56,139 nt of DNA, taken from assembly GCF_016595155.1 (NCBI RefSeq), contig NZ_JAENGP010000017.1, positions 1 through 56,139 on the forward strand, given 5' to 3'. The stretch comes from Advenella mandrilli (GTDB taxonomy: Bacteria > Pseudomonadota > Gammaproteobacteria > Burkholderiales > Burkholderiaceae_B). Positions 29,807 to 50,322 of the stretch are shown here, in pieces. The translations under genes were made by a program, and so were the position numbers. Position 1 is the stretch's first letter. Every line of letters starts with the position of its first letter. A model generated the notes under the pieces. The model saw only the letters and a list, made by a program, of their open reading frames with translations. It made no database searches and was not told where the DNA came from.

Positions 29807-30586
29807 ATGAGCACCATCCAGATTAATAATGAAACCTTTAACTACCAGTTAAACGGCCCCGAAAACGCACCCGTGCTGTTTTTTTCAAACTCCCTGGGCA
29901 CCACTTACAGCATGTGGGCCAAACAGGTGGATTATTTCAGCAAAAACTATCGTGTCTTAAGCTACGACACGCGCGGACATGGCGAATCCGTTAAAAACAA
30001 AGGTCCCTACACGCTTGAACAACTGGGCAATGATGTGTTGCAAATTACCCAGGCCCTGGAGATTGAAAAATTCAGTTTTTGCGGTATTTCCATGGGCGGC
30101 CTGATTGGCCAATGGCTGGGTATTCACGCAACTGAAAAACTGGAAAAACTGATTGTATGTAACACCGCCGCCAAAATCGGCCAGGAAGCCGGCTGGAATG
30201 AGCGCGCCGCCCTGGTGCGTTCTCAAGGCATGAATCCGGTGGCCGACAGCTCTGCCGGCCGCTGGTTTACCGAAGGCTTTGTTCAGGCCAACCCGGCGAT
30301 TGTTGACGAACTGATTAATGGCTTGCGCCAGACGGATGCCGAAGGCTATGCCGGCTGTTGTGAAGCACTGGCCCACGCCGATTTGCGCGACAACATTGCC
30401 CTGATCAAAACCACCACCCTGATTGTGGCCGGAAGCCATGATCCGGTAACTACCGTGGCCGATGCCGATGCCATGGCAGAAAAAATTACAGGTTCAAGCC
30501 GTGTGGATCTTAACGCCTCACACCTGTCCAATATTGAAGCCAGTGACGCATTCAATAGTGCCCTGGAAGCCTTTTTAAAGGGCTAA
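29807..30586 (+). CDS. pcaD: 3-oxoadipate enol-lactonase
   Basis: 259 residues of alpha/beta hydrolase fold. The nucleophile is Ser95 in FCGISMGGLIGQWLG, the oxyanion segment is SNSLGTTYSMW and the final His is in ASHLSNIE. RGHGES and the cap region match enol-lactonases, and the gene next to catC makes PcaD/CatD the best call. It forms 3-oxoadipate, which is then activated and cleaved to succinyl-CoA and acetyl-CoA by genes not in the window. Its 3' end overlaps the convergent mobA-like gene by 12 bp. Confidence 0.88.
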   Translation: MSTIQINNETFNYQLNGPENAPVLFFSNSLGTTYSMWAKQVDYFSKNYRVLSYDTRGHGESVKNKGPYTLEQLGNDVLQITQALEIEKFSFCGISMGGLIGQWLGIHATEKLEKLIVCNTAAKIGQEAGWNERAALVRSQGMNPVADSSAGRWFTEGFVQANPAIVDELINGLRQTDAEGYAGCCEALAHADLRDNIALIKTTTLIVAGSHDPVTTVADADAMAEKITGSSRVDLNASHLSNIEASDAFNSALEAFLKG

Positions 30587-31168
30587 GCTTCTTTCTTGCT
30601 CAAGTATTTCAGGGGTATCGAAATCCATGATGCATCCCCGGTCATTGACCGGGATTTTCATCAAAAAACCCGCATTTTCCTGCAGGATTTTTTTTGCTCC
30701 TTTATCTCCGCCCAGGTTCACAAGTTGTGTAAAAAAAATATTGGAAAACCAGACCGGATGGCCCTGTTGACCATCATAAAAAGGAGCCGCCAATCTTGAA
30801 TATGCCGTTGAGGCAATCATGGCCCGGATCGTGGATTCCTGAATAAACGGCAAATCTGCCGGACAAATAAGCCAGCCCTCATATTGTTTCAAACAGGAGA
30901 CGGCGTAGGCAATCGAATCTCCCATGCCCGGTGAGGAAAATGGCATTTCAAGGAAATTAATGCCTTCACGTTTTAAACAATCGATATGTTGCTCAGAGTG
31001 ATTGCTTAGCACGACCCAGACATCTTCATTAAGGACTCGCTGGATTACTTTTGCTGTATGAAGAAACATGGGTACGCCATTCAAATCAACCAAACGCTTA
31101 TCTGAACCAAAGCGTACCGATTTCCCCGCGGCCAGAATAATAGCCCCTGTTTTTTTGGGTATTTCCAT
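30575..31168 (-). CDS. MobA/MocA-like molybdenum cofactor nucleotidyltransferase
   Basis: 197 residues. The N-terminal nucleotide-binding motif GAIILAAGKSVRFGSDK and WLICPADLPF mark the MobA-like NTP transferase family. The single-domain form next to xdhC and xanthine-oxidase-family subunits points to a CTP:molybdopterin cytidylyltransferase (MocA type), which makes the MCD cofactor used by such hydroxylases. It is 14 bp downstream of xdhC, at the end of the long minus-strand gene series. Confidence 0.85.
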   Translation of the reverse strand: MEIPKKTGAIILAAGKSVRFGSDKRLVDLNGVPMFLHTAKVIQRVLNEDVWVVLSNHSEQHIDCLKREGINFLEMPFSSPGMGDSIAYAVSCLKQYEGWLICPADLPFIQESTIRAMIASTAYSRLAAPFYDGQQGHPVWFSNIFFTQLVNLGGDKGAKKILQENAGFLMKIPVNDRGCIMDFDTPEILEQERSLAL

Positions 31169-31182
31169 ATCGTTATCCTGGG

Positions 31183-32190
31183 TTAAAACACTTTTTCCGC
31201 TTCAATGTTTTTGGCATAAGCAACATCAGCAGTTTGATGTAAAAATACGCTATTTTTAACCGCAAGAATTTCAGCCATAACACTGACCGCTATTTCAGCG
31301 GGTGTCTTGCTGCCAATATAGACACCAATCGGACCGCGCAAGCGGGCAAGAGAGGCTTCCGTTTGATCAAAATGCGCTATCATCCGCTCTTTTCTGGCCT
31401 TATTATTTCTGCGCGAACCAATACCGCCAACATAAAAAGCATTGCTTTCCAGTGCCTGCAACAATGCCAGGTCATCCAGTTTAGGGTCATGGGTAAGCGC
31501 GACAATGCTGGTGCGGGCATCTGGCCTGAATTGATCAACGGCATCATCGGGCATTAATGTTGTCAGCTTGGCTTGCGGTATCGACCATCGCTTATCCGCA
31601 TTGATACGCGGATCACACACAGTGACTTCAAATCCGCAAAATAAAGCCATTGTGGCCAGATACTCGGATAGCTGACCTCCACCTATAATCAGCATGCGAT
31701 ATTCCGGACCGAAACAACTGATAAGAAGATCATTATCAAGCAGCAACGGTGTGGGCGCGGTTGCGCGCCTCAGCATCACCTTTCCATCAGCAAGCCTGAC
31801 CTTCCTTTGCATCAGATGACCGGCATCCAATTCAGCCACCAGTTCGGCCAGGGCACTGATTTCCGGATTGAACTCCAGAAAAAGCTCAACGGTTCCACCA
31901 CAAGGTAGCCCGAACTGATGTGCTTCATCAGCTGTTACACCATACTTAATCAGCTCGGGAGGGCCATCCTGAATGTCTGAAGATGATCCAAAACGGAGAA
32001 TAAGGTCATCTTCCAGACAGCCCCCCGAAACAGAACCGACGGTAGAACCATTTTCAGACAAGGCCATAATGGAACCGATTGGGCGGGGTGAAGAACCCCA
32101 TGTCCTGACGACAGTCACCAAAACCGCTTTCAGGCCTTGTTGACGCCACTCAAGCAAGGTACGTAAAACCATAACGTCCAGATTTTCCAT
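31183..32190 (-). CDS. xdhC: XdhC/CoxI family molybdoenzyme maturation protein
   Basis: 335 residues. N-terminal XdhC/CoxI domain (VRTWGSSPRPIGSIMA and GSVSGGCLEDDLI) and a C-terminal Rossmann domain starting LIIGGGQLSEYLATMALFCG. XdhC binds molybdenum cofactor, promotes its sulfuration and inserts it into xanthine-oxidase-type enzymes. The client is almost certainly the hydroxylase subunits encoded at 35.7-40.5 kb on the same strand. The strong ribosome site AAGGAGGAGTC fixes the start. Confidence 0.92.
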   Translation of the reverse strand: MENLDVMVLRTLLEWRQQGLKAVLVTVVRTWGSSPRPIGSIMALSENGSTVGSVSGGCLEDDLILRFGSSSDIQDGPPELIKYGVTADEAHQFGLPCGGTVELFLEFNPEISALAELVAELDAGHLMQRKVRLADGKVMLRRATAPTPLLLDNDLLISCFGPEYRMLIIGGGQLSEYLATMALFCGFEVTVCDPRINADKRWSIPQAKLTTLMPDDAVDQFRPDARTSIVALTHDPKLDDLALLQALESNAFYVGGIGSRRNNKARKERMIAHFDQTEASLARLRGPIGVYIGSKTPAEIAVSVMAEILAVKNSVFLHQTADVAYAKNIEAEKVF

Positions 32191-32270
32191 GACTCCTCCT
32201 TACATTAATTTGTTGTCAAGACATAGTAATTCAAACCGGTCCCCGCAATGTGAAAACCGGTTTCGGTTCT

Positions 32271-33383
32271 TTAAAACACCGTCTGGATACCAATACGGGT
32301 AATAGACTGGTTCCTGCTGGAGGAAGCATCGTTGGGGCCAAATAAACCATTAATGCTGGCTTTTGCGTCTTTATTGGTTCTTTGGTAAATTTGCTGCGCA
32401 TAAACCAGTGTCCGTTTGGACAAAGAATATGACAGCGTCGAGTTAACTTGATGTGCGTAATTTTTGTTTAATTGTGCATTGCCTTTTGAATAATTATAAC
32501 TGGCACCCAGTGCCCATTTCGGGTCTATTTGCCACTTGCCGCCAATTTCAGCGCCATAAACAGAGGCCTTGTTGGAGCGGTTGGTGGTTTTGGTAAACAG
32601 AGCCATAGCCGTCACTTTCTCAAACGCATAGTGCATGCCAACCCCCCATGTCCTGATAGGAGTTTGCACCGGCTCCATGGCTGCGTTTACCCCGTATTTA
32701 ACATCGGTATAGGCGGCTCCCGCTCCAAAGTTTCCTGACTTATAGTTCATGCCAAAACTCAAGGTCCTGTCTTTGGTTGAGCGATTCGGCCCTGAACCGA
32801 AGCCATACTGCGCACCCGCCGAAAATCCGCTCAAGTTAGGCGTTGTATACTTGACAGAATTGTGTACTTGTTGCCCCGAAGTCCTATCCCAGTCAGAGCT
32901 TCCCGTCGCATTAAAAGGAATGCCCAAACCCGAAAAAGGGCCTTGCCTGAACGTATACAGTCCTCCTGCTCCGGGGCTGGCCGAGTTCCCTGAAATGGTC
33001 AGGGAATCCCACATGAAATCAAATTGGTTACCCAAGGTCAAACGACCAAATTTATCATTTTCAAGGCCCACCAGTGCGGTACGGCCAAAAATACCTTGCC
33101 CCGGAATGGTTTCACCGTTATGAATATTGAACTGGCTTTGCAAGTCGAAGATGACTTTTGTCCCGTTACCTAAATGCTCAGTTCCTTTGAAACCAATAAA
33201 AGATGGCGTGTAAATTCCCGAATCCGTTCTGAAACGACGGTCATCTCCCTGGTTTGAAATATAGGATACCCCTATATCCAACAAACCGTATATTTGTACA
33301 CTATCTTTTTTTTCTGTTTCAGCATGGGCTATTCCTCCTGCCAAACAACATGCCAGACCCACCACAACTAACTTCTTCTCCAT
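32271..33383 (-). CDS. Gram-negative general porin
   Basis: 370 residues. Signal peptide (MEKKLVVVGLACCLAGGIAHA), then a 16-strand beta-barrel pattern starting VQIYGLLDIGVSYISNQG and ending with a terminal Phe (ITRIGIQTVF), as outer-membrane porins do. It is of the OmpC/Omp32-like beta-proteobacterial group. Being inside the catabolic series, it probably lets the aromatic substrate into the periplasm. An inverted repeat AAACCGGT / ACCGGTTT at 32233-32263, just past its stop, may end its transcript, though it has no U run. Confidence 0.88.
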   Translation of the reverse strand: MEKKLVVVGLACCLAGGIAHAETEKKDSVQIYGLLDIGVSYISNQGDDRRFRTDSGIYTPSFIGFKGTEHLGNGTKVIFDLQSQFNIHNGETIPGQGIFGRTALVGLENDKFGRLTLGNQFDFMWDSLTISGNSASPGAGGLYTFRQGPFSGLGIPFNATGSSDWDRTSGQQVHNSVKYTTPNLSGFSAGAQYGFGSGPNRSTKDRTLSFGMNYKSGNFGAGAAYTDVKYGVNAAMEPVQTPIRTWGVGMHYAFEKVTAMALFTKTTNRSNKASVYGAEIGGKWQIDPKWALGASYNYSKGNAQLNKNYAHQVNSTLSYSLSKRTLVYAQQIYQRTNKDAKASINGLFGPNDASSSRNQSITRIGIQTVF

Positions 33384-33529
33384 ACCGTCTTCCTTTTTGG
33401 ATTATTAATACTATGTTGATTTAATTAAACTTTTTATTTATTTCGATTGTTTTATGCAAAACAGAAAGCAATAAGAGACCCTCCGTTTTACACGGTGTTT
33501 TTTTACTTCGTTTATTTAAAGGTCTTTGA

Positions 33530-33955
33530 TTAAGACTTGGCTAGAAAATCACCTATCGTTTCATCTGTATGAAAGACAGGTTTTTCATGATAGTGAGGAC
33601 CATCATAAATTTCGATCAGCACACTACGCTCATGTGCAATCGTCGGACCATGCGGATGCCCAACGGGATTCATATAAAATGAACCGGGTTGCAGTCTCAG
33701 ACCAACATCAACATACTCATAGTCTCCCTCAAGGCAATACATGAACTGATTGGATGCATGCGTATGCTTTACAGGAATCTGTCCATCCTTCTGGAATTCA
33801 AGCAAGGCAATGCTCGCTCCCGTTTCAGCATTTTTCCATAGAAAATACTGACGAAACCCGTATTCAGGATAGTCAATCCATTGTTCAGGATCCAGATCCT
33901 TGGTATTTAACAAGACTTCCAATGTCTGACAAAGTGCTTTGTTTTGCTCATGCAT
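33530..33955 (-). CDS. Small single-domain cupin protein
   Basis: 141 residues. One cupin barrel with motif 1 IPVKHTHASNQFMYCLEGDY (two His; the usual Glu is replaced) and motif 2 PVGHPHGP. A metal site is likely. It could be a dioxygenase, isomerase or sensor-like cupin and cannot be assigned from sequence. Its ATG overlaps the end of the RraA-like gene by eight bases, so it is coupled to that gene and most likely acts in the same pathway. It is too short for gentisate dioxygenase. Confidence 0.75.
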   Translation of the reverse strand: MHEQNKALCQTLEVLLNTKDLDPEQWIDYPEYGFRQYFLWKNAETGASIALLEFQKDGQIPVKHTHASNQFMYCLEGDYEYVDVGLRLQPGSFYMNPVGHPHGPTIAHERSVLIEIYDGPHYHEKPVFHTDETIGDFLAKS

Positions 33956-34730
33956 AGTAAAACTCCAGTTCAGGACGTCCTTCTTTAACCCAACGGTTAT
34001 ATTCTTCCCTGCTTGAAACATTGGCAGGAAACAAACCAATCAATGAGCGCCCACGTTCCAAATGCCAAGCGACAAATTCCTCATACTTCTCCGCTTCAGC
34101 TGCTTCCTGGGCCACTTCATCAACGAGATAAGCGGGAATAACAACCACGCCATCTCCGTCACCTACAATAATGTCGCCCGGGTATATGGATACGCCAGCA
34201 CAACCAATTGGTACATCCCACTCCAGAGGATGCATGCTCAACGGCGTTGCGGGTGCAGCACTTCTCTGCTGAAAGGCAGGTAACCCTATTTTCAGGAATG
34301 CAGGGATGTCACGAAAACCGCCATCGGTCACCACTCCTTCAACACCACGCATTTTCAGACGCAGTGCCATCATGTCTCCCATTGAGGAAGCTCGTGTATT
34401 ACCGAAAGCATCAATAACTAAAACCGATCCTTTCGGACAGATCTCCATCACCCCCCGATGCTTGTTGTCATCACGGCAATAGGAGTCCATCGTATCGATA
34501 TCTTCACGTGATGGAATGAACCGTAATGTAAACGCAGGTCCGATCATTTTCGGTTGTCCTGGTGAGAGAGGATTAATCCCTAACATTAAGGTATTACGAA
34601 AGCCGCGTTTCAATAAGGCATTAGCCAGATTCGCTGTACTGCTTATCATCAAAGCAGCTCTTGTTTCCTCAGACAATGATGTAGACTCGCTTTTTTTTCT
34701 CATCAGATTATCTGTTATATTATTAGACAT
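33948..34730 (-). CDS. RraA-like class II aldolase (HMG/CHA aldolase family)
   Basis: 260 residues, longer than RraA of E. coli (161) and similar to catabolic members of the family. The catalytic region GVVTDGGFRDIPAF holds the Arg-Asp pair (R140, D141) needed for 4-hydroxy-4-methyl-2-oxoglutarate / 4-carboxy-4-hydroxy-2-oxoadipate aldolases and oxaloacetate decarboxylation. These enzymes release pyruvate at the end of meta-cleavage routes. The start at 34730 is supported by CCAGGAGT eight bases upstream. It lies between the FAH-family and cupin genes. Confidence 0.85.
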   Translation of the reverse strand: MSNNITDNLMRKKSESTSLSEETRAALMISSTANLANALLKRGFRNTLMLGINPLSPGQPKMIGPAFTLRFIPSREDIDTMDSYCRDDNKHRGVMEICPKGSVLVIDAFGNTRASSMGDMMALRLKMRGVEGVVTDGGFRDIPAFLKIGLPAFQQRSAAPATPLSMHPLEWDVPIGCAGVSIYPGDIIVGDGDGVVVIPAYLVDEVAQEAAEAEKYEEFVAWHLERGRSLIGLFPANVSSREEYNRWVKEGRPELEFYYA

Positions 34731-34769
34731 AATATTTACTCCTGGACTCATTGTTAAGCCTCACCTATT

Positions 34770-35630
34770 CTATTTAGCCAAAGTTTCTTTAATTATCGTA
34801 TTTTTCAAAATACCCACACCTTCAACCTCTACTTCAACCACATCTCCCTCTTTCATCCAGACCTGGGGATCACGACGCAGTCCAACCCCACCTGGCGTAC
34901 CCGTCACAATGACATCACCAGGCTCTAAAGAAGTGAAAGTAGAAATAAAATTAATTAGCGTGGGGATAGAAAATGTCAGCATATCGGTGGTTGTTCTTTG
35001 CATTTCTTCGCCGTTCAACCGGGTAACCAGACTTAACACGCGATCAGTTGACAGCTCATCGGTAGTAACCAGCCAGGGACCAAAACCACCTGTTGCATTG
35101 AAGTTCTTACCAGGTGTCCATTGATTAGTCGCCAGTTGCCAGTCCCGAACACTGCCATCGTTATAACAAGAATAGCCGGCGACATGCTGCATTGCCTGAT
35201 CTTCAGGAATCCGACGGCCGCCTTTACCGATCACGATCGCAATTTCACCTTCAAAGTCAAATTGATCTGATTCAGCAGGACAAATCAAAGGACGATTATG
35301 ACCTACCTGGGATTCATTCAAACGCAGAAAAATAACAGGTACAGTTGTATCCGGACGATTGCCTTCAACGCGGTGTGCCAGATAATTCAGGCCAGCACAG
35401 AAAATTCGTGGGGCATTGGGAATAACCGGCAGGAATACCACATCATCAATATGAAAATCAGGTTGTGAATTTTCAATTAATTTTTCCAGTCGATCCAGCC
35501 AGCCGCCTTTGAGGACAGACAAAAGGTCTGGACAAGAGGCGCCCAAACGTCGGCCCAAATCATATATATAATCGCCTTCAACCAATCCAAAACTTGAGCG
35601 ATTCTGACTTACAAATGACATTAATTTCAT
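34770..35630 (-). CDS. Fumarylacetoacetate hydrolase (FAH) family enzyme
   Basis: 286 residues. The FAH active site is complete: GLNYLAH with His86, metal ligands E127 and E129 in FDFEGEIAIVIGKGG, D158 in YNDGSVRDWQ, and TGTPGGVG. The family covers C-C hydrolases (fumarylpyruvate, acylpyruvate), 2-hydroxyhepta-2,4-diene-1,7-dioate isomerase (HpaG type) and decarboxylases/hydratases of meta-cleavage. Given an extradiol dioxygenase upstream and an RraA aldolase downstream, it should act on the ring-fission product. The exact reaction is open. Confidence 0.85.
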   Translation of the reverse strand: MKLMSFVSQNRSSFGLVEGDYIYDLGRRLGASCPDLLSVLKGGWLDRLEKLIENSQPDFHIDDVVFLPVIPNAPRIFCAGLNYLAHRVEGNRPDTTVPVIFLRLNESQVGHNRPLICPAESDQFDFEGEIAIVIGKGGRRIPEDQAMQHVAGYSCYNDGSVRDWQLATNQWTPGKNFNATGGFGPWLVTTDELSTDRVLSLVTRLNGEEMQRTTTDMLTFSIPTLINFISTFTSLEPGDVIVTGTPGGVGLRRDPQVWMKEGDVVEVEVEGVGILKNTIIKETLAK

Positions 35631-35692
35631 TACAACCCCATTTATCCTTATTTATTTCATAAAAAATTAACTAAGTTTTTTCTACAACCCTA

Positions 35693-36496
35693 TCAATGCG
35701 ACTCGGCAAATTCAATAGCCCGCTTCAACGCATAAATAACCAGTTGTGCACGATAAGCAGCCGAAGCATGCATATCAGCATTCAGACCTTCTGCCGATTG
35801 AACACACGTTTTAACTGCATTCACACTAAACTCGGACTCAAGCAATTTCTCAAACTCATGTTGACGGAATACACAAGGACCCGCCCCATTAACCGCAACA
35901 CGAACCTTTTTATCCTGACTTTGCGAAACAAAACATCCAGCCATGACATACCCGGATGCCGGATTGGGCATCTTGCAATAACCTGCTTTCAGTACTCGCG
36001 GAAAATTCACACGCATCACAAACTCGCCCTTTTCAAGGGCCGTACTGAACAACCCAGTAAAAAACTCATCTGCGTTAATGGTGCGTTTGCTAGTCACGAT
36101 TTGCGCTCCCAACCCAAGTACAGCACCTGGATAATCGGCTGAGGGGTCGCTATTGGAAATAGACCCGCCAATGGTGCCCATATTTCTAACCTGAGGATCT
36201 GCAATGCCGCTGGCCAAAAATGCCAGGGCCGGAATGGCCTGTGCAATTTCCTTGTGAGCCGCCACGTCAGTATGCCGGGTCATGGCCCCCACCGACACCA
36301 TCTTTTCATCAACGGTAATGCCACGCATTTCAGGCAGATCCTGTAAGTCAATCAGCAATGCCGGATTGGCCAGTCTTTGTTTCAGGGTTGGCAACAGCGT
36401 CATACCCCCGGAAATGAAGCGGGCTTCAGGATTTTTACTGAAAAGCTCATTGACTTCCTGAACACTTTTCGCACGCACATAATCAAAGTTATACAT
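35693..36496 (-). CDS. Molybdenum hydroxylase FAD-binding (medium) subunit
   Basis: 267 residues of the CoxM/CutM type. FAD-binding motifs are seen in RFISGGMTLLPTLKQR (residues about 25-40) and GTIGGSISNSDPSADYPG (about 106-123). It passes electrons from the iron-sulfur subunit to the final acceptor. The start codon is two bases after the CoxS-like stop, so the two are coupled. Confidence 0.92.
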   Translation of the reverse strand: MYNFDYVRAKSVQEVNELFSKNPEARFISGGMTLLPTLKQRLANPALLIDLQDLPEMRGITVDEKMVSVGAMTRHTDVAAHKEIAQAIPALAFLASGIADPQVRNMGTIGGSISNSDPSADYPGAVLGLGAQIVTSKRTINADEFFTGLFSTALEKGEFVMRVNFPRVLKAGYCKMPNPASGYVMAGCFVSQSQDKKVRVAVNGAGPCVFRQHEFEKLLESEFSVNAVKTCVQSAEGLNADMHASAAYRAQLVIYALKRAIEFAESH

Positions 36497-36498
36497 AG

Positions 36499-36993
36499 TT
36501 ATACGTTCCCTGCCGATACGCTACCCTGACACTTCCTGGCACAAGAATGAATGGCATCCACAATCCCCTGGTAACCGGTGCAACGGCACAGATTACCCTC
36601 CAGCTCATGACGAATGACCGCCTCGTTGTCAGCACAGCCACGATTCAGGATATCCAGCCCCTGCATGACCATTCCCGGTGTACAGTAACCACACTGTAAG
36701 GCATGGTGTTCCTGAAAGGCGGCCTGCAGCGGATGCAGGTTTTCCGGAGTTCCCACCCCTTCAATCGTGATCACTTCTTTTCCATCTGCCATAACGGCAA
36801 GCGTGGTACAGGACTTGACACTTCGGCCATCCAAATGCACAGTGCAACAACCGCACTGTGTCGTGTCGCAACCCACATGAGACCCTTTCAGGCCACAATT
36901 TTCACGCAGAAAATGAACCAAAAGCGTACGGGGTTCAACCTCGTGTTTCTGCTCAATACCATTAACCATAATGGCGACTGTAGTTTTTGACAT
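36499..36993 (-). CDS. Molybdenum hydroxylase 2Fe-2S (small) subunit
   Basis: 164 residues of the CoxS/CutS type. The plant-type cluster ligands are C42, C47, C50 and C62 (GSHVGCDTTQCGCCTVHLDG), and the second cluster is held by C101, C104, C136 and C138 (LQCGYCTPGM; NLCRCTG). The frame runs further upstream, but the ATG at 36993 gives the normal N-terminus (KTTVAIMVNGIEQ). No Tat signal is seen, so the enzyme is cytoplasmic. Confidence 0.93.
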   Translation of the reverse strand: MSKTTVAIMVNGIEQKHEVEPRTLLVHFLRENCGLKGSHVGCDTTQCGCCTVHLDGRSVKSCTTLAVMADGKEVITIEGVGTPENLHPLQAAFQEHHALQCGYCTPGMVMQGLDILNRGCADNEAVIRHELEGNLCRCTGYQGIVDAIHSCARKCQGSVSAGNV

Positions 36994-37033
36994 ATTTTGA
37001 ATACCTCGGTAAAAATCCTGACCTGAAACACCC

Positions 37034-37702
37034 TTATCTGGAGCCCAGATAAGCAGCCAGTAAAGCAATTACTAAAACGGTGAAAGCCCAGGTCCATGCC
37101 GGCATTTGAATGGATACACCCGATTTGGATGGTGTCGCTTGCGCATACACCGGAGCAGGTACAAAAGCCGGTGTCGCAGCAACCGCCGAACCAGCCGCTG
37201 CAACAGCAGTTCCCATTGCCGGTGCTGCCACCTTGGCAGGTTCTGCCACCGCAGGCGCTGGACCCAGCAATTGTTGGCTGAAACGCTCAAAAAACTGTTT
37301 GGTCAATTTGGCTGAAGTGGCATCAATCAGGCGTGAACCAATCTGCGCCAAACGCCCGCCTATTTCAGCCTTGGCTTCATATTTCAGCACCGTTCCCTTA
37401 TTGGCCCCCTCTTCCAGTGTGACAACCGCACTGCCTTTGGCAAATCCGGCGACGCCCCCATCTCCTTCAAATGCCAAGGTGTAGGTTTCGGGTGCTTTCA
37501 TGTCAAGTTGCCTAAGCTTTCCATTAAAACGAGCCTTGACCGGACCAATTTCAATCACAACTTTGACCGCATAAATACCTGGTTCCACTTCAGTCACTGA
37601 TTCACATCCAGGAATTGACAATCGAAGCACTTCCGGATTCATCAGGGCAGCCCACACCTGTTCTCTGGATACGGGAAGCTGTTGCTCACCATTTAAAATC
37701 AT
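37034..37702 (-). CDS. CoxG-like SRPBCC protein with C-terminal membrane anchor
   Basis: 222 residues. Residues 1 to about 150 form the CoxG/SRPBCC domain (MILNGEQQLPVSREQVWAAL at the start). A Pro/Ala/Val-rich linker follows (about 150-195) and a single C-terminal membrane helix (AFTVLVIALLAAYLGS). In Oligotropha CoxG helps attach CO dehydrogenase to the membrane; here it may recruit the hydroxylase so that electrons can enter the quinone pool. It sits between the small-subunit gene and the YciI-like gene. Confidence 0.85.
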   Translation of the reverse strand: MILNGEQQLPVSREQVWAALMNPEVLRLSIPGCESVTEVEPGIYAVKVVIEIGPVKARFNGKLRQLDMKAPETYTLAFEGDGGVAGFAKGSAVVTLEEGANKGTVLKYEAKAEIGGRLAQIGSRLIDATSAKLTKQFFERFSQQLLGPAPAVAEPAKVAAPAMGTAVAAAGSAVAATPAFVPAPVYAQATPSKSGVSIQMPAWTWAFTVLVIALLAAYLGSR

Positions 37703-37722
37703 ACTTTTGTCTCACAAAAAAA

Positions 37723-38034
37723 TTATAGTGGCGGCAAAGTTGCCGGACGCTTGGTTTGCCATCTGAATTGATAAACCTCTATTTTTGATGACAGCTCCGC
37801 CTTCTCAAATGGATCGTTATTGATCATCTCCCATACTTCCGCTTCATCATGAGCATCAATCACCATCATCCCGCCAATAGACACCCCATCCTTATTCTGC
37901 ATGGGTCCACCAAAATGAACCTTTTCATGAAACTGCTTCATGTATTCTGCATGCAAGGGACGCGTCGTCTTTCTTATTTCTTCCGCTTTTCCATCGGTAC
38001 GATCAGTCCTGTATACAATAAACTGCTTCAACAT
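37723..38034 (-). CDS. YciI-like small protein in the hydroxylase operon
   Basis: 103 residues of ferredoxin-like (dimeric alpha/beta barrel) fold resembling YciI and muconolactone-isomerase-type proteins (MLKQFIVYRT, GGPMQNKDGVSIGGMMVIDA). The reaction is unknown; relatives act as dehydrochlorinases, isomerases or deaminase-like enzymes. Two ATGs occur, at 38040 and 38034. GAAGGG lies eight bases before the second, which is preferred. Confidence 0.75.
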   Translation of the reverse strand: MLKQFIVYRTDRTDGKAEEIRKTTRPLHAEYMKQFHEKVHFGGPMQNKDGVSIGGMMVIDAHDEAEVWEMINNDPFEKAELSSKIEVYQFRWQTKRPATLPPL

Positions 38035-38089
38035 CCTCATTTCCCTTCGCCCTCCTGATTTAACTCGTTCATCTCAAATTCAATGCTTA

Positions 38090-40465: not shown

Positions 40466-40509
40466 TTACTTTTCTCCACAAATACCCATGCCGAAAACTT
40501 AACCAACGA

Positions 40510-41085
40510 CTACCAGCATGAGCTAGCATCGTATACATTCTCATCCAATGAGAATGTCAGCGGGGCACCCTTACTAATAATCTTTCCATAACGACCTGCA
40601 TAAAAAAGCAGACCTCTGTCCGGATGCCTTGGGCGCTCCAGAGTATGAACCCGTCCAACAAACAAGGTATGGTCACCACAGGGATAAGCGTGTTCCAGAT
40701 CCGCTGCAATCTGTAAATTGGCACCAGACAAAACCGGCACATTACCAATACGTTCAAATTGAGGACATTTTCCTTCTATAGGCTTACCTGCAAAATGGTT
40801 ACTGCACCACTCCTGATGTTCACTTAAAATGCTCACACCAAAATAACCCGAACGTTGAATGCGCTCATGCATTCTTGCCGTACATGCAACAGAAACAATA
40901 ATCAGCGGTGGTTCAAGAGAACCCGACATGAAAGCATTCGCGGTCATGCCATGGGGTTCCCCATCCATATCAGTGGAAATAACAACAACACCGGTGGCAA
41001 ACTCACCCATGGCATTGCGAAATTCACGCGGATTAAAATTAACAGCTCGCTCAGTGCGCTGTTCTTCAAGGATTAATTCTGTCAT
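40510..41085 (-). CDS. Flavin reductase (HpaC-like) of the two-component monooxygenase
   Basis: 191 residues with the flavin-reductase-like FMN-binding fold (NAMGEFATGVVVISTDMDG, HGMTANAFMSGSLEPPLIIV). HpaC-type proteins use NADH to supply reduced FAD to an HpaB-type oxygenase. The oxygenase is encoded two genes upstream. The ATG at 41085 follows GAGGCAGATTCAA and is chosen over the one at 41100. The C-terminal SLDENVYDASSCW is not a family motif. Confidence 0.88.
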   Translation of the reverse strand: MTELILEEQRTERAVNFNPREFRNAMGEFATGVVVISTDMDGEPHGMTANAFMSGSLEPPLIIVSVACTARMHERIQRSGYFGVSILSEHQEWCSNHFAGKPIEGKCPQFERIGNVPVLSGANLQIAADLEHAYPCGDHTLFVGRVHTLERPRHPDRGLLFYAGRYGKIISKGAPLTFSLDENVYDASSCW

Positions 41086-41133
41086 TTGAATCTGCCTCAT
41101 GTTGATTGGATTAAAGTCTTGTCTTAACCGTTT

Positions 41134-42069
41134 TTACTCAAAAAAGTCCCGCGTAGGGTCCATGCCCCACTGGGTCGTATCATCAGCAAAAACATCGTAA
41201 TACAAAGGCTCGTAATCCTCATTAACGATATCACCATCGGTATAGTGCTCAACGCGGAAACCGAATGGATCGCGCCAATAATCAAAAATTTGGCTACCTA
41301 TTAAATGGCGGCCAACACCACAATCCAGCCTATGTCCTTTAGCCACCAGGTAGTCATGAGAACCCATGACGGAATCAATATCCTGGAATTCAAAAGAGCA
41401 ATGATGAACACCGGTCACTTCTGCCTGGACGATAAGCATGGAATGGTGATCAACAAACTCCTCAGCTTTGTCCATGCGCAGGAATGTACCAATTACCTGA
41501 CTCTTGTCGCCCGGCACGCACATGTAATCGGAAGCCAGCAGACCAAAACGGTCCTGGAACCATTTGACGGATTCAGAGTGACCGCTAACTCGCAACACAA
41601 AATGTCCGATACGCAAGGCCAGACCAGGCTCCCGCTTGGGACGCAAAGACGCATTGAACCGGGATTTAGCCTGCCCCGCATTAAATGGATTTGGCAGTCG
41701 ATGGGTGATTTCCTCTGCGGGCTCCTGACCCCAGATAGCATCTATTTGTACGTTATCTGGCGTCATCATACGAACACGCCACCCACCTCCTGGATAATCC
41801 TCAACCTTGGTAACGGGTGAGGAACCTGGCAGAGCCGCCAGCTCATTCAGATCCTCCATGCCGCTTACCCGAATAGCTGCACCAATGAATTTATTTTCTT
41901 CTCCAAGCAGAGTGACATGCAAAAAGGGTGATGTACCTGCCCCGCGCATAAACAGACTTTTGTCGTCTTTATGTGCTGTTAATAACCCGAAGTCCTGCAT
42001 AAAAGACTCCATCAGATCCAAATCATTAACTTGGTAAACAACATAGGCAATTTCATTTCCTAATGGCAT
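41134..42069 (-). CDS. Type I extradiol (vicinal-oxygen-chelate) ring-cleaving dioxygenase
   Basis: 311 residues in two VOC modules, the size of catechol 2,3-dioxygenase and BphC. The three iron ligands in the C-terminal module are H156 (RIGHFVLRV), H222 or H223 (GVHHCSFEF) and E274 (FGFRVEHYTDGD). The spacing fits active type I enzymes. It opens a catechol next to the hydroxyl pair. It lies 33 bp behind the HpaB-like oxygenase, whose product should be such a catechol. Ribosome site TAAGGAGAGAG. Confidence 0.9.
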   Translation of the reverse strand: MPLGNEIAYVVYQVNDLDLMESFMQDFGLLTAHKDDKSLFMRGAGTSPFLHVTLLGEENKFIGAAIRVSGMEDLNELAALPGSSPVTKVEDYPGGGWRVRMMTPDNVQIDAIWGQEPAEEITHRLPNPFNAGQAKSRFNASLRPKREPGLALRIGHFVLRVSGHSESVKWFQDRFGLLASDYMCVPGDKSQVIGTFLRMDKAEEFVDHHSMLIVQAEVTGVHHCSFEFQDIDSVMGSHDYLVAKGHRLDCGVGRHLIGSQIFDYWRDPFGFRVEHYTDGDIVNEDYEPLYYDVFADDTTQWGMDPTRDFFE

Positions 42070-42102
42070 ATCTCTCTCCTTAAAATAAAAATATTGATTT
42101 AA

Positions 42103-43668
42103 TTATCTGCGTTTGATAACACTTACATCATCAGGATTGATCAAATCAGGTACGGTCCATCCGTCAAGATCATATTCACTCATACATGTATCAACGAATG
42201 ATTTCATCTTATCCAGATCACCTGTTCCTTGCGCATCCCACAAGTTGGCCAGGCGGGTCACATCGTTGGAGCCAAGATAATTGATTTCATACAATTCATG
42301 ACGGGCACCAAATTCAGTACCAATGGTGTCCCACAGCAGCTTCATAGTCTTGACACGTCCCTCGGCATCCACATCACCCGTACCACGGACATATTTGTCC
42401 AGGTAGCCACGAATTTCAGGCGCTTTGAAGTCATTTGCGTGTGAATTCAAGTAGATCAGGCCACTTGCCACGCTGGATTCAATAATATTTTTGATGGCAG
42501 GGTAGGCAATTTGCGACAATACACGATAAGACGTTGCAAAACGTGCATCAGGCTGAACCATGCCATTCCATGGCACATTACTTTTTGCCATCGCATCAGA
42601 CAAGCCCCACATTGCATTACGCCAAGCAATAACTTCGCCAAAACGCGACTGCACGCCATGGAAACTGGAGCTGCCGGTAATTTCCAATGCCTTTGCCAAT
42701 AAACCGCAAATAAAATCAAGTTTGACAGCAAGACGAGTACAACCATGCATAGCAGCACGACTATTAAAGCCGGAGCCGGGTGCAAAATCGTTTGCCAGAT
42801 CGGCATTACCGTACATAAACACGTCTTCCCATGGAATAAATACATTATCCATGACCAGAATCGCATCGTTTTCATCCAGACGGCTTGACAGCGGATAATC
42901 AAACGGGCTGCCTACAACAGCTGCACGATATTCGTTTGAAATACGGGAAATCATTTTCATGCCAGGCGCACCGGTAGGCACCATGAAAATAGGTGTATAT
43001 TTAGGATCTTTAATCGGAAGCTGGCCAGCATGTGCCACAAAGGTGTAGTGAGTCAGGGCTGAACCGGTCGCCACCACTTTGGCACCACTGACATAAATAC
43101 CCGCATCGGTTTCTTTTTCAACGTGGATGAAAACATCAGAAGTATCTGCCGTCGGCTTGTTACGGTCAACAGGGGGATTCATGATCGCATGGTTGATATA
43201 CAAAGTGCGCTGCTGTGCTTTCGAATACCAGCGCAAGGCGTTTTCTTCGAAGCCTTTATAAAAGGCCGAGTTGGCGCCCAAGGTACCCAGGAAAGACCCC
43301 TTGTAATCTGGAGAACGTCCCATCCAGCCATAGGCAACACGCTGAATTTCAGCAACCGCATCACGCGCGGCAACCTGTTCTTCTACGGTTTTGGGAGCCA
43401 AAAAATAACGATGGGTAAAACCACCCGAGTCATTGGGAGCTGTCAGCAGCTCACGACGTGACTCATCATGCATCGCATCATACATGCGCGCAATCATGCG
43501 GGCCGAGTTTCTGAAAGCCGGGTGCTCTGCAATATTTTTAACCCGCTCACCATAAATCCAGACCTCACGACCGTCATCAAGACTTTTCAGGTATTCTTCT
43601 CCGGTAAACGGTACGTTTTTTTCATTCATTTTGCTTTCTTTCTCTTTCAAGTTTGTTTCAACTTTCAT
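42103..43668 (-). CDS. HpaB-like FADH2-dependent aromatic monooxygenase (4-hydroxyphenylacetate 3-hydroxylase family)
   Basis: 521 residues, the same length as E. coli HpaB and clearly alike across its length: PFTGEEYLKSLDDGRE, GWMGRSPDYK, NHAIMNPPVDRN, EKETDAGIYVSGAKVVATGS and GARHELYEINYLGS. The enzyme adds a hydroxyl ortho to an existing phenol using reduced FAD from a partner reductase (40510-41085). The substrate may be 4-hydroxyphenylacetate or another phenol. The usual hpa lower-pathway genes (hpaE, hpaF, hpaH, hpaI) are missing. GGAG seven bases before the ATG at 43668 supports this start; 43629 is an alternative. Confidence 0.88.
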   Translation of the reverse strand: MKVETNLKEKESKMNEKNVPFTGEEYLKSLDDGREVWIYGERVKNIAEHPAFRNSARMIARMYDAMHDESRRELLTAPNDSGGFTHRYFLAPKTVEEQVAARDAVAEIQRVAYGWMGRSPDYKGSFLGTLGANSAFYKGFEENALRWYSKAQQRTLYINHAIMNPPVDRNKPTADTSDVFIHVEKETDAGIYVSGAKVVATGSALTHYTFVAHAGQLPIKDPKYTPIFMVPTGAPGMKMISRISNEYRAAVVGSPFDYPLSSRLDENDAILVMDNVFIPWEDVFMYGNADLANDFAPGSGFNSRAAMHGCTRLAVKLDFICGLLAKALEITGSSSFHGVQSRFGEVIAWRNAMWGLSDAMAKSNVPWNGMVQPDARFATSYRVLSQIAYPAIKNIIESSVASGLIYLNSHANDFKAPEIRGYLDKYVRGTGDVDAEGRVKTMKLLWDTIGTEFGARHELYEINYLGSNDVTRLANLWDAQGTGDLDKMKSFVDTCMSEYDLDGWTVPDLINPDDVSVIKRR

Positions 43669-43707
43669 CTCATATCTCCATATATTTAAAATTTAAATTA
43701 ACATCAG

Positions 43708-44724
43708 TTATTTTCTTGACAAGGCCATCGCCAATATCAGTATCAATCCAATGGTCATTGTTGATGCATAAGCACCAACTTGCATCAGATTTAAACCGTT
43801 TTGAACCAACATAATTAAAAGCGTACCAACTACAACCGCAAATACCCGTCCTACTCCACCCGCCAAACTCACGCCTGCAATAACACAAGCTGCAATTGAT
43901 TCAAGCGGCAAGGTAACGCCTACATTAGCCTCACCAGTTCCCAAGCGCGCAGTCAACAACAAACCTGTCAAAGACGCGAATACACCACAAATTACAAAGG
44001 CATTAATAATCACCTTTTTTGTACGAATACCTGAAAGATCAGCAGCTCGCTGGTTTCCACCAGTGGCATACACATGGCGTCCAAAACGTGACCACTCCAA
44101 AAGAGCATAAGTAATCAGAATCAATAACAAGGCAACCAATGAAGGAATCGGTATACCCATCACTTCACCAAATCCAAATACTTCACCCAGGACATCTGGC
44201 AAACCATATACGGGGACACCACCACTGATAAACAAAGTAATGCCAAACAGGACTGAAGACATGCCCAATGTCATCATAAAAGGAGGAATTTTCATCACTG
44301 CCATACCAACACCATTGATCAAGCCAAAAACAGCACCAATCGCAAAACCGACAGCACTGCCAGCCGCAATGGCCAGCCACGGACTTTCCGGCATGGCAAC
44401 CAGCATGGCTGCCATCACCAATGAAGCGGCTACTGATGAAAGCGCGGCAATTGCACCCACTGACAAATCAAGCCCCCCCACAACCAGCACAATCAATTGT
44501 CCCAAAGAAACAATCAACAGGTAGACTGATTGCCTGGCAACATTAACCAGGTTATCGACTGTTGCAAACCCAGGAGCCAGAACATAAAAAACGATGGAAG
44601 AAACAATAAACAAAACTGGTAACACCATCATTTGACGGTATTTATAAATAAAATTTGTACTCAGTCCTGATACTGGTTTCTTATCTGAAACAGGTAACGT
44701 ATTAGTCATTGTTGTTGTGTTCAT
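43708..44724 (-). CDS. Ribose-type (CUT2) ABC transporter permease
   Basis: 338 residues with about 8-10 membrane helices. RbsC family hallmarks include GQLIVLVVGGLDLSVGAIAA, FGRHVYATGGNQRAADLSGI and VIAGVSLAGGVGRVF. It forms the membrane channel for the binding protein and ATPase encoded directly upstream. Placed before the oxygenase genes in one series, its cargo is more likely the aromatic substrate than a sugar. Confidence 0.92.
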   Translation of the reverse strand: MNTTTMTNTLPVSDKKPVSGLSTNFIYKYRQMMVLPVLFIVSSIVFYVLAPGFATVDNLVNVARQSVYLLIVSLGQLIVLVVGGLDLSVGAIAALSSVAASLVMAAMLVAMPESPWLAIAAGSAVGFAIGAVFGLINGVGMAVMKIPPFMMTLGMSSVLFGITLFISGGVPVYGLPDVLGEVFGFGEVMGIPIPSLVALLLILITYALLEWSRFGRHVYATGGNQRAADLSGIRTKKVIINAFVICGVFASLTGLLLTARLGTGEANVGVTLPLESIAACVIAGVSLAGGVGRVFAVVVGTLLIMLVQNGLNLMQVGAYASTMTIGLILILAMALSRK

Positions 44725-44736
44725 TTGAATTCTTAC

Positions 44737-46290
44737 TCAAAAAAAGTTTTCTAGAATGCGATGCTCATCAAATTCATCACGCTGGAATTCGGCAGTAATT
44801 TCGCCATTATTCATCACCAGAATTCGATGACACAGGCCAAACAACTCTGGCAAATCTGAAGAAATCAGCAAAATTGCCGCTCCTTCCTTACTTAAATCTG
44901 CCAAATAGCGATAAATTGATGGTCGTGCTCCCATATCGACACCAACCGTCGGCTCATCAAAAACAAACACTGAAATTTCCTGGGCCAACCCTTTGGCAAG
45001 CATTACTTTTTGCTGATTACCTCCTGAGAAATTGCTAATTGGCTCACCCAATCTTTCTTTTGCAAATTCCACTTTATCCGACAGATTCCTTAACAGATTA
45101 ATTTCCTGTTGTGGCTTCAATACTTTGCCGGCAATTCTTCCCCAGATTAGTCCCGACAAGGACATGTTTTCTCTGGCTGGCCGACACATCACCAGACCTT
45201 CCTGCTTGCGGTCTGCCGGGCTATACCATAAACCAGCCTCAATCGCATCGGCAGGATGCCGGAAGTTTGTTTTATTACCATCAAGAGAAACTTCACCTCC
45301 TGTTATTTTCTTAAGCCCAAAACAGGCTTGCCCCAGTTCGCTTTTGCCGCAGCCAACCAAACCGGCAATTCCTACGATCTCACCTGCCTTTACTTCAAGG
45401 TTTACATTCTCGATATTTGGTACACCCAATTCATGTGCCAAAGACAAACTGGATATTTTCAAACGGGCCTTGCCAATTTCCGTATTCAATTCCGGATAAA
45501 TGGCATCCAGTGTCCTGCCCGTCATCAATTTGATCAATTCAGCCTCTGGGGTTGCGGCTGGCACGGTTGCTATCTGTTTGCCATCTCTTAAAACGGTCAC
45601 CACATCACCCAGAAGCGGGATTTCATGCATTCTGTGCGTGATATAAATAATTGCTGTTCCCTGTTTTTTTAGTTCTAAAACCAAATCAAACAAGGAACGC
45701 GCATCATGCTCGGACAAAGAGGCAGTAGGCTCATCCAGAATAAGAATCTTCGGTTTTTTTCTTAAGGCCTTGCAAATCTCAACCATTTGCTGCTTGCCTC
45801 GCGGCAAGGTGGCTACATAAGATTTGGCATCAAGATCAAAACCCAAGGTATTGATAAGTTCTTCAGCTGATTTAAGTGCTTCACTTCTGGCCAGCAAACC
45901 GAGTGAATCAAGCGGCTCCTCACCTAATACAATATTTTCCGCAACCGTCAGTTGGGGTATTAGGGAAAATTCCTGGAAAACAGCACGAATCCCTTCAGCA
46001 CGCGATTGCGCAACACTATGAAATACGCCTTTATGCCCTCCAACCTCAATCTCTCCGTTGCTTGGTAGATTGGCACCTGCCAGCATTGAGATAAATGTTG
46101 ATTTACCGGCTCCATTTTCCCCAAACAGAACATGGACCTTTCCAGATTCGATATCCATATGAATATTATCCAGAGCCACATGGTTTCCATATACTTTGGT
46201 AAGCCCCCGGATCGCAAGGACGACCCGAGACTTGCCTTCATGTTGCTCGGGCGCGATATCCTGGATATTTTCAAGAACTGCGCTTTGCAC
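44737..46290 (-). CDS. Ribose-type (CUT2) ABC transporter ATPase with two nucleotide-binding domains
   Basis: 517 residues. First domain: Walker A GENGAGKST, signature LPRGKQQMVE (degenerate) and Walker B ILILDEPTASLS. Second domain: Walker A GLVGCGKSE (degenerate), signature FSGGNQQK and Walker B VFVFDEPTVGVD. This asymmetry is normal for RbsA/MglA. The start is best taken as the GTG at 46290: the binding-protein stop is seven bases upstream and GTGAGG lies just before it. A longer open frame overlapping the previous gene is rejected. Confidence 0.92.
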   Translation of the reverse strand: MQSAVLENIQDIAPEQHEGKSRVVLAIRGLTKVYGNHVALDNIHMDIESGKVHVLFGENGAGKSTFISMLAGANLPSNGEIEVGGHKGVFHSVAQSRAEGIRAVFQEFSLIPQLTVAENIVLGEEPLDSLGLLARSEALKSAEELINTLGFDLDAKSYVATLPRGKQQMVEICKALRKKPKILILDEPTASLSEHDARSLFDLVLELKKQGTAIIYITHRMHEIPLLGDVVTVLRDGKQIATVPAATPEAELIKLMTGRTLDAIYPELNTEIGKARLKISSLSLAHELGVPNIENVNLEVKAGEIVGIAGLVGCGKSELGQACFGLKKITGGEVSLDGNKTNFRHPADAIEAGLWYSPADRKQEGLVMCRPARENMSLSGLIWGRIAGKVLKPQQEINLLRNLSDKVEFAKERLGEPISNFSGGNQQKVMLAKGLAQEISVFVFDEPTVGVDMGARPSIYRYLADLSKEGAAILLISSDLPELFGLCHRILVMNNGEITAEFQRDEFDEHRILENFF

Positions 46291-46297
46291 TATTGCC

Positions 46298-47371
46298 TCA
46301 CTTTCCAAAACTGAAAACAGGCCTGAAGCCGGCTGGCGCAAAGGTGATCGCAGGATCAAATTCGCTGACATCGGCAGGTGTATAAACCGTCCCAATGGTA
46401 TCTACTCTCGTTAACGCTTCAGGTTTGTCGCCTTGCTCAAGAATTCGAACAGCGGAGTCAATGGTCATTTTTGCAGTCGTAACGATAGGCGCAACACCTG
46501 CTGCTTCAATTTCGGCCTTTTTCAGACCTTGATGTACGCCAGGCGTCATGTAAACTGATACCAGTTTGACTTTATCCAGCAACTTACGTGCTTTTAATAA
46601 TGGCAAAGCTCCTTCCACCATCACAGCCGTACCCACGATATAGTCCAGATTTTTGTGTGTTTGCAACATGTCTTCAACAAGACGTGCCTGAATTTCTTTA
46701 CCTACATCACCATATTTGGTTTCAGCAATAACCACCGCACTATCTTTGATGCCATCATTAAAGCCAGCATTAAACCCTTCCACAAAACCTGCGCCAGCAG
46801 GGCCTGGCAACCAACCCACACGAACCTCAGGCGTTCCTTTTGGATGTTTTTTAGCCAAATATTCACCCGCCCGGAAACCTTCATCACGCGGATTAGTCAG
46901 AACCCGTGCTGCCACATCGGTTGATTTGGAACCATTGAAAGCATCAATCACGACAATGTTTTTTTCCTTGAGCTGTTTTAACAGATTGCCAACCCCCTCT
47001 GCATCAATGGAAACCATCACAACTGCTTTAGCGCCACCGGCCACACAGTTTTCAATTTGGGAAATCTGATTGTTAAGTTGGGTATATCCACCGGCATCCA
47101 GTACCTGTACGCTAACACCCAGTCTTTTAGCCTCTTCAACAACGCCATAATTGGCTGCCAACCAGAATGGATCTTTCATATGAGGGAAAGATACACAGAT
47201 GGGCCAATTCTGACTAGCCTTCTTCTGGCCCTCATAATCTATCTGAACCACCTCACCATCAACACCTACCTGATTCACCTTGAGAGGGAACCAATCAGCT
47301 GCACTGACGATTGAACTGCTTAATGTAATAGATGCGGTTACTACGCACTTTAAAAACAAATTAGATGTCAT
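46298..47371 (-). CDS. Periplasmic binding protein of the ribose/LacI type (TorT-like)
   Basis: 357 residues. Signal peptide ending VSAAD, then a two-lobe type I periplasmic binding fold (PICVSFPHMKDPFWLAANYG; AVVMVSIDAEGVGNL; VDTIGTVYTPADV). The extended N-terminus DWFPLKVNQVGVDG resembles TorT, a TMAO-sensing relative, but the adjacent ATPase and permease show it feeds an importer. First gene of the long minus-strand series. A strong AAAGGAG lies upstream and a promoter is seen at 47452-47480. Confidence 0.9.
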   Translation of the reverse strand: MTSNLFLKCVVTASITLSSSIVSAADWFPLKVNQVGVDGEVVQIDYEGQKKASQNWPICVSFPHMKDPFWLAANYGVVEEAKRLGVSVQVLDAGGYTQLNNQISQIENCVAGGAKAVVMVSIDAEGVGNLLKQLKEKNIVVIDAFNGSKSTDVAARVLTNPRDEGFRAGEYLAKKHPKGTPEVRVGWLPGPAGAGFVEGFNAGFNDGIKDSAVVIAETKYGDVGKEIQARLVEDMLQTHKNLDYIVGTAVMVEGALPLLKARKLLDKVKLVSVYMTPGVHQGLKKAEIEAAGVAPIVTTAKMTIDSAVRILEQGDKPEALTRVDTIGTVYTPADVSEFDPAITFAPAGFRPVFSFGK

Positions 47372-47451
47372 CCTCTTGCTCCTTTAAATTTATCGCTTGA
47401 TTTTTTACTTACATTCACTGATTTGTGTTCTGTTGAGCTTTATTAAAAATA

Positions 47452-47480: not shown

Positions 47481-47499
47481 ATGAAAATAAATCACTACC

Positions 47500-47533: not shown

Positions 47534-47555
47534 TGATAATAAACAGGGGAGTTTC

Positions 47556-50300: not shown

Positions 50301-50322
50301 GACATCCTCCTGTTAATAGAAT

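Follow-up and report, generated by a model that had tools for sequence, protein, structure and literature searches.

A proposed 21-gene ring-cleavage unit with a molybdenum hydroxylase in a catechol locus of Advenella mandrilli

The window analysed here is the whole of a contig of 56,139 bases from the 3.28-Mb genome of Advenella mandrilli, and its subject is a unit of 21 genes that extends from a MobA-like nucleoside triphosphate (NTP) transferase gene to a Rid-family gene, includes LysR, GntR and TctC-type genes, and lies in a catechol (cat) locus (Table 1). The gene series is real and appears to constitute a ring-cleavage unit, a variant of the known modified meta-cleavage kind; no description of it was found in the open-access literature searched by gene combination, in which few subscription journals are covered. 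The unit is mobile and, with about even confidence, is proposed to serve the uptake and modified meta-cleavage of a small ring compound that bears a hydroxyl group and probably nitrogen, with a molybdenum (Mo) hydroxylase oxidising the semialdehyde. More tentatively, the Mo hydroxylase may have replaced an aldehyde dehydrogenase (ALDH) for the semialdehyde in a nitrogen-ring pathway that would combine, as one travelling unit, a VOC extradiol dioxygenase (EDO) with a Rid protein devoid of the usual Arg, a hydratase of the cupin family and an aldolase of the RraA type.

Gene series and its conservation

On the minus strand, 17 genes run from the TorT-like binding protein gene (47371) to the MobA-like gene (30575). 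A sequence-only reading of this DNA had counted 15 minus-strand genes plus three, and 14 plus the porin, xdhC and mobA-like genes were found instead; its gene list, strand and coordinates were borne out by a re-check of open reading frames (ORFs) and by family profile scans. Its proposal of an undescribed ring-cleavage unit with a dedicated importer also finds support, but the LysR, GntR, TctC-type and Rid genes of the same unit had been left out and the mobility of the unit overlooked. The short gaps that it described were recovered (−98 to 62 nt between neighbours up to the cupin gene, then 146, 80 and 14 nt); the large overlaps arise from over-long mechanical start codons, and comparison of start candidates indicated that the mechanical ORFs of the ATPase, the [2Fe-2S] subunit and the cupin probably begin too early. 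The absence of a terminator between genes was likewise supported by a consensus scan, in which all 16 minus-strand terminator-like sites at 30575-47371 (some overlapping) sit inside genes. Over 30000-49900 on both strands, 32 such sites were counted against 20.3 ± 4.1 in shuffled sequences, and a promoter scan gave no excess (26 versus 31.5 ± 6.8). The semialdehyde dehydrogenase, tautomerase, hydratase and HpcH aldolase that had been called missing were indeed found in none of the cluster proteins scanned.

Twenty-two loci were mapped by one script, and 15 of them carry an EDO at least 44% identical to that of the window: the window itself, L009, L010, L011, L012, L013, L019, L020, L056, L057, L058 (a genome of the same order), the Streptomyces plasmids L051, L052 and L064, and the Gemmobacter plasmid L053, with L012, L019 and L020 cut by contig ends. 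The core series is kept in nine other Burkholderiales loci (L009-L013, L019, L020, L056, L057). The search for conserved gene order that the sequence-only reading had proposed returned the same series in the nearest named relatives, A. faeciporci and A. alkanexedens, whose proteins are 85-99% identical to those of the window (91-99% for most genes; 71% for the MobA-like gene of A. faeciporci). Seven further Burkholderiales loci have most of the core proteins at identities of 50-83%, so that the gene association is more than chance. Across the 15 EDO loci, Rid was present in 13 (absent only in the contig-cut L019 and L020), HpaB in 13 (absent in L053 and L058), RraA in 13 (absent in the contig-cut L012 and L019), the FAH gene in 12, and the cupin in 11 (absent in L011 and the three contig-cut loci). 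The Rid gene directly follows the EDO gene in L011-L013, L056 and L057, before HpaC or the contig end, and lies at the opposite end of the unit, not beside the EDO, in Advenella; HpaC is placed before the EDO in L020. A group A FAD monooxygenase stands in L058 where HpaB would be, with the ALDH adjoining the cupin, and the Gemmobacter locus, which has no HpaB, holds a second Mo hydroxylase, so that all 12 uncut loci have at least one ring-hydroxylase candidate, an EDO and one aldehyde-oxidising candidate. TctC-type homologues were found in L056 (43%) and, partially, in L057, and GntR homologues (33-35%) in L053 and L063. In the Rubrivivax locus, Rid is followed at the cut contig end by another HpaB-like frame (L012:10753-12388; 75% over 310 aa).

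The EDO search gave matches in 7 of 200 genomes of the window's own family (five of them at least 57% identical) and in 23 of 399 genomes of the family of G850 (four at least 52% identical), and a class-wide search at E 1e-60 returned only the window's own genome among 369, as did a phylum-wide cupin search at E 1e-25 among 299. HpaB matches in G739, G576 and G660 (L021-L023) were accompanied by no EDO, Rid, cupin, RraA or Mo genes; L023, with a weak HpaC and two FAH genes, resembles ordinary hpa genes. No other core gene was recognised in a Cupriavidus plasmid stretch with HpaB (L054), and no Rid, cupin, RraA or Mo enzyme in the fetched stretches around EDO relatives at 32-39% identity (L024, L025, L055, L059 and L060), which served as outgroup EDOs. 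Plasmids of Mesorhizobium (L062:11944-14740) and Agrobacterium (L063:11983-14776) carry a group of cupin, Ldh-family reductase, Rid and FAH genes from which this EDO is absent, and the group is perhaps a separate module.

Molybdenum hydroxylase and aldehyde dehydrogenase

The Mo hydroxylase belongs to the xanthine oxidase family, with Mo, FAD and 2×[2Fe-2S] subunits, the catalytic Glu and XdhC-type maturation. Its large subunit is the sole MoCoBD_1 match in the genome; no other partner of that family was found for the XdhC, CoxG and MocA-like proteins, and the maturation genes therefore probably serve this enzyme. Alignment with 8uem retained the catalytic Glu and placed YRGAGR opposite YACSFR, with Gly for the Cys of carbon monoxide dehydrogenase. 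An identity as aerobic carbon monoxide dehydrogenase, which has the active-site Cys motif AYxCSFR, was rejected on this replacement and on scores of 526 and 476 bits against cut-offs of 950 and 991.

The Mo enzyme was found in nine of the 15 EDO loci (window, L009, L010, L011, L013, L019, L056, L057 and L053) and an ALDH related to the Streptomyces plasmid enzyme in four (L051, L052, L064 and L058); no locus had both, and the two with neither (L012 and L020) are contig-cut. This mutual exclusion suggests that the Mo enzyme may oxidise the semialdehyde ring-fission product, and it lends support short of proof to the earlier suggestion that the Mo enzyme takes the place of the semialdehyde dehydrogenase. 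In eight genomes searched, a close ALDH (67%) was found only in G1074 and a close Mo enzyme (at least 73%) in six others; the window's own genome has weaker ALDH relatives elsewhere, the best at 44%. The large-subunit match in G1212 (L081) contains one internal TGA, which is either an alignment edge or a real stop. The EDO tree places L012 with the eight same-order Mo loci in a starred group (100/99) and L020 with the ALDH loci in a second one (84/83, not starred); Gemmobacter, with a Mo enzyme and a long branch, falls outside both. This amounts to at least one exchange between Mo and ALDH enzymes, and not to many independent ones.

Several points weigh against the proposed replacement and pathway. 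The Mo/ALDH split follows the EDO tree, with three changes of the Mo label (2 of 500 shuffles gave as few) and two of the ALDH label (9 of 500 did), and L052 and L064 are near-copies, so the split may reflect few events. Genome G164 (locus L020), 94% complete, has neither enzyme at E 1e-100 or better. The FAH proteins of L051-L053, L058 and L064 are only 33-37% identical to that of the window and are perhaps a different enzyme, no cupin was seen beside L011, and no importer gene was found in L057, where LysR faces HpaB. All 15 Rid rows (13 from the cluster and two from L062 and L063) lack the substrate-binding Arg and have Cys, Ser or Ala there, which makes deaminase activity doubtful.

The Mo enzyme may instead act first, the alternative given in the sequence-only reading, hydroxylating the carbon beside the nitrogen of an N-heterocycle before HpaB makes the vicinal diol, in which case the ALDH of other loci would belong to a different lower pathway. 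Its relatives of solved structure include 6-hydroxypseudooxynicotine dehydrogenase and quinoline 2-oxidoreductase, ranked after carbon monoxide dehydrogenases; Gemmobacter has two Mo hydroxylases, and an extra acyl-CoA-dehydrogenase-type monooxygenase in Streptomyces could fill such a slot. Against this stand the complete exclusion in the 13 loci showing either enzyme and L058, in which one FAD monooxygenase lies beside the ALDH and no second hydroxylase was recognised, some genes there being unscanned. An early role of this kind is unlikely, if of some weight.

Active-site residues, substrate and related pathways

The EDO is of type I (VOC): H156, H223 and E274 align with the iron ligands of 1f1r and 3hpv, and they are kept in 20 of 20 rows. 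Cys250 and Thr299 occupy the positions of the carboxylate-binding Arg243 and Arg293 in homoprotocatechuate dioxygenase (HPCD), and the score against the HpaD model TIGR02295 was 74 bits for a cut-off of 321. TTQ at 298-300 was present in 15 of 15 cluster EDOs and in none of the five outgroup EDOs. The hydroxylase is of the HpaB-type two-component class, with HpaB_N and HpaB domains, GWMGRSPDY in all 11 HpaB rows examined and a second pattern, NHxhx[NHS]PP, in nine of them.

The cluster and the hpa/hpc pathway have the HpaB, HpaC, type I extradiol and FAH families in common, and these HpaB, HpaC, HpaD-like and HpaG-like members, together with four HpcH_HpaI matches, present only elsewhere in the genome and outside the cluster, could be read as a rearranged 4-hydroxyphenylacetate (hpa) pathway with its lower enzymes elsewhere. 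Such a pathway is very improbable: HpaB and the EDO score below equivalog cut-offs, neither HpaE nor HpcH is among the window cluster proteins scanned, and an EDO that lacks both carboxylate-binding Arg residues makes 4-hydroxyphenylacetate an unlikely starting point, so that the line toward this compound in the sequence-only reading is disfavoured. The cluster differs from hpa/hpc in lacking HpaE, HpaF, HpcH and the homoprotocatechuate-binding Arg pair and in adding the Mo enzyme, Rid, cupin and RraA. A plain hpa pathway was rejected on the EDO residues, the model scores and the lack of HpaE, HpaF and HpcH among the cluster proteins scanned.

The substrate is probably a nitrogen-containing ring compound, such as a hydroxypyridine or an aminophenol. 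Its nitrogen, for which the confidence is somewhat better than even, is suggested by the Rid gene in 13 of 15 loci, by the permease and ALDH type of Streptomyces, and by the second Mo hydroxylase of Gemmobacter, which would fit an N-heteroaromatic ring. All three Streptomyces loci have a gene annotated as cytosine permease, the L051 copy of which matches NCS1 models weakly (43-46 bits), and the best model for their ALDH is L-piperidine-6-carboxylate dehydrogenase, an amino-semialdehyde enzyme (569 bits for a cut-off of 730). Of the Rid proteins in the genome, that of the window is the closest to the Rid of L011 (57%, against 24% for the next paralogue), and it has PAC in place of the PAR of the other Rid paralogue in the genome, which keeps the Arg. 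It is also conceivable, and distinctly unlikely, that the substrate is a nitrogen-free phenol, with Rid as an isomerase or hydrolase and the Mo enzyme oxidising an ordinary hydroxymuconic semialdehyde. The absence of Arg in every Rid row would suit such a substrate, as would the solved chains nearest HpaB, namely chlorophenol-4-monooxygenase and 4-hydroxyphenylacetate 3-monooxygenases; the cytosine-permease-like gene and amino-semialdehyde-type ALDH of Streptomyces speak against it, and so does the cupin-Rid-FAH trio of Agrobacterium, located near an amidohydrolase and a hydrolase of the isochorismatase family, for which biuret amidohydrolase and RutB are among the nearest models, under their cut-offs.

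The genes, their order and conservation, the metal ligands, the transfer of the unit and the mutual exclusion of Mo enzyme and ALDH in these loci were observed directly; the nature of the substrate, every reaction that follows and the sequence of the later ones are inferred, here for the preferred nitrogen-containing case. The porin and CUT2 importer would take up the substrate, HpaB with the flavin reductase would place a second hydroxyl next to the first, and the VOC EDO would open the ring to a semialdehyde, which the Mo hydroxylase, with XdhC and the MocA-like protein as its maturation factors, would oxidise to the acid in lieu of an ALDH. Rid would remove ammonia from, or isomerise, the enamine or enol acid, the FAH-family enzyme would decarboxylate or hydrolyse the product, the cupin would add water, and RraA would perform the final retro-aldol cut to pyruvate and a second small acid. 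The RraA-like protein is not of the LigK type (4-carboxy-4-hydroxy-2-oxoadipate aldolase; 67 bits against 304 for the ligK_PcmE model), and the role as final aldolase that the sequence-only reading gave it is plausible by analogy with the lumichrome pathway, which ends with a cupin hydratase and a retro-aldolase. A PDB search with the cupin returned no matches, and its AlphaFold2 model was discarded as too poor for use (mean pLDDT 54.6).

The sole ring-cleaving dioxygenase recognised in the cluster is of VOC type, unlike AmnBA of the amn cluster for 2-aminophenol, which is not known as a VOC enzyme, and the cluster Rid is present but Arg-less. The amn pathway of Pseudomonas sp. AP-3, in which semialdehyde oxidation is followed by a Rid step, serves as the model for such a step and resembles the proposed pathway in ring fission, semialdehyde oxidation, a Rid-family step, decarboxylase, hydratase and aldolase, but it uses the semialdehyde dehydrogenase AmnC in place of a Mo enzyme and a different aldolase, AmnG, its AmnE has Arg117, and no HpaB is named in the passages cited (PMC6742747). 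The kpi cluster for 4-hydroxypyridine (Arthrobacter sp. IN13) shares a monooxygenase, extradiol ring opening, the FAH enzyme KpiD, whose role is proposed only, and a permease of the same family as that annotated in the Streptomyces relatives; its dioxygenase KpiC is, in contrast, of the amidohydrolase family, and no Mo enzyme, Rid, cupin or RraA is described in the portions cited (PMC7356986). The lum cluster for lumichrome/vitamin B2 (Nocardioides simplex) shares an extradiol step followed by the cupin hydratase LumY (16 kDa) and then the retro-aldolase LumX (26 kDa), and it contains a Mo enzyme and a FAH gene; it differs in having a Mo enzyme, LumJ, that acts as hydroxylase on a quinoxaline, a Rieske dioxygenase for ring hydroxylation, a LumE of 46 kDa and a FAH protein, LumV, with no assigned role (PMC12746152).

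Unit boundaries, regulation and flanking features

A close catA (at least 91%) was found in three other genomes among the 10 Advenella genomes searched, own included: A. faeciporci, A. alkanexedens and G189. In all three (L092, L093 and L094), the cat genes are contiguous, with LysR, TctC-type, catC and pcaD genes and with catA and catB on the opposite strand (families from profile scans; TctC-type gene from sequence reading). The window has 20.6 kb between pcaD and catA, filled by the entire series, and its cat ortho-cleavage locus lies in two parts, one with LysR, TctC-type, catC and pcaD genes (27361-30586) and one with catA and catB (51247-53436); the final 12 bases of the MobA-like gene overlap the end of pcaD. 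Homology of the window to the cat locus of L093 and L094 ends at 30586 and restarts at 51215, and homology to the unit copy of A. faeciporci, which is on a different contig from its cat locus, runs from 30609-30674 on the left to 50901 on the right, beyond the Rid gene. The left junction therefore lies between 30587 and about 30609 and the right junction between 50902 and 51214. The cat locus of G189 (91% complete) is intact, and the EDO has no match in that genome. A. alkanexedens, like A. faeciporci, carries the unit elsewhere. From the intact cat loci of relatives and the matching unit ends elsewhere in A. faeciporci, the unit has moved as one piece between chromosomal places, LysR, GntR, TctC-type and Rid genes included, and either direction is possible.

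Two adjacent transposase fragments were observed in A. faeciporci about 1.1 kb past the Rid end of the unit (L096:1979-3297). In the same species, the MobA-like gene is followed at a distance of about 200 bp by a styrene/indole-monooxygenase-type gene of equal orientation (Smoa_sbd; L095:7101-8327, minus strand); this gene is not at the corresponding place in the window, whose flavin reductase scores best against StyB.

A LysR homologue occupies the same divergent head position in nine of nine other Burkholderiales loci (L009-L013, L019, L020, L056 and L057). Upstream of the Rid gene lies a palindrome whose 24-bp core was found a single time in the window and in none of 100 shuffles; L009 and L010 retain its central 12 bp. 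Outside the unit, a repetitive YadA-like trimeric autotransporter reading frame with stalk and anchor domains lies at the very contig end (53552-56110), and a 6S RNA and a tRNA-Leu gene are on the minus strand at 4788-4971 and 8447-8533.

Table 1. Positions and family assignments of the unit and its parts in the window
Feature	Position	Strand	Family, model or remark
Whole transferred unit in cat locus	30587..51214		Homology breakpoints
MobA-like NTP transferase	30575..31168	-	PF12804; closest to the models for DVU_1551-family NTP transferase and for molybdenum cofactor cytidylyltransferase of MocA type (~112 bits with either, under the respective cut-off)
XdhC maturation factor	31183..32190	-	PF13478, PF02625
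General porin	32271..33383	-	PF13609
Small cupin, 141 aa	33530..33955	-	PF12973; ATG 33955 from alignment; 169-aa TTG ORF over-long
RraA-like protein, candidate aldolase	33948..34751	-	PF03737; PRK08245 above cut-off
FAH-family enzyme	34770..35630	-	PF01557; highest scores, under the cut-offs, with 2,4-didehydro-3-deoxy-L-rhamnonate hydrolase and the HpaG C-terminal domain
Mo hydroxylase FAD subunit	35693..36496	-	PF00941
Mo hydroxylase [2Fe-2S] subunit	36499..36993	-	PF01799, PF00111; ATG 36993 likelier than TTG 37068
CoxG-type protein	37034..37702	-	PF06240
YCII-domain protein	37723..38040	-	PF03795
Mo hydroxylase large subunit, proposed semialdehyde oxidase	38090..40465	-	PF01315, PF02738, PF20256
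Flavin reductase (HpaC/StyB type)	40510..41100	-	PF01613; best NCBIfam model StyB, below cut-off
Type I (VOC) EDO	41134..42069	-	PF00903; TIGR02295 below cut-off
HpaB-type FADH2-dependent hydroxylase	42103..43668	-	PF11794/PF03241; TIGR02310 below cut-off; nearest solved chain 4oo2
CUT2-type permease	43708..44724	-	PF02653
CUT2-type double ATPase	44737..46290	-	PF00005; true start uncertain, TTG ORF up to 46395
TorT-like periplasmic binding protein	46298..47371	-	PF13407; NF008185 above, TIGR02955 below cut-off; nearest solved chain 4yhs
LysR regulator, divergent	47481..48536	+	PF03466/PF00126
GntR/FCD regulator	48511..49173	-	PF07729, PF00392
Intrinsic-terminator-like hairpin between TctC-type and gntR genes	49272..49294	-	10 pairs, 6 GC, T tail
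TctC-type binding protein	49344..50300	-	Named from sequence reading, without family scan
Rid-family protein, Arg-less	50366..50770	-	TIGR00004 and RutC models, both below cut-off
32-bp perfect palindrome, candidate operator	50796..50827		Upstream of Rid gene, 25 nt apart

The EDO and its companions occur in Burkholderiales, on a Gemmobacter plasmid and on Streptomyces plasmids, which suggests that the substrate is probably met in more than one habitat. If the proposed pathway is true, it would provide candidate functions for the Arg-less Rid group, the well-conserved small cupin, the YCII protein and the PRK08245-type RraA, and it would show clearly that a Mo hydroxylase can swap places with an aldehyde dehydrogenase in a ring-cleavage pathway.

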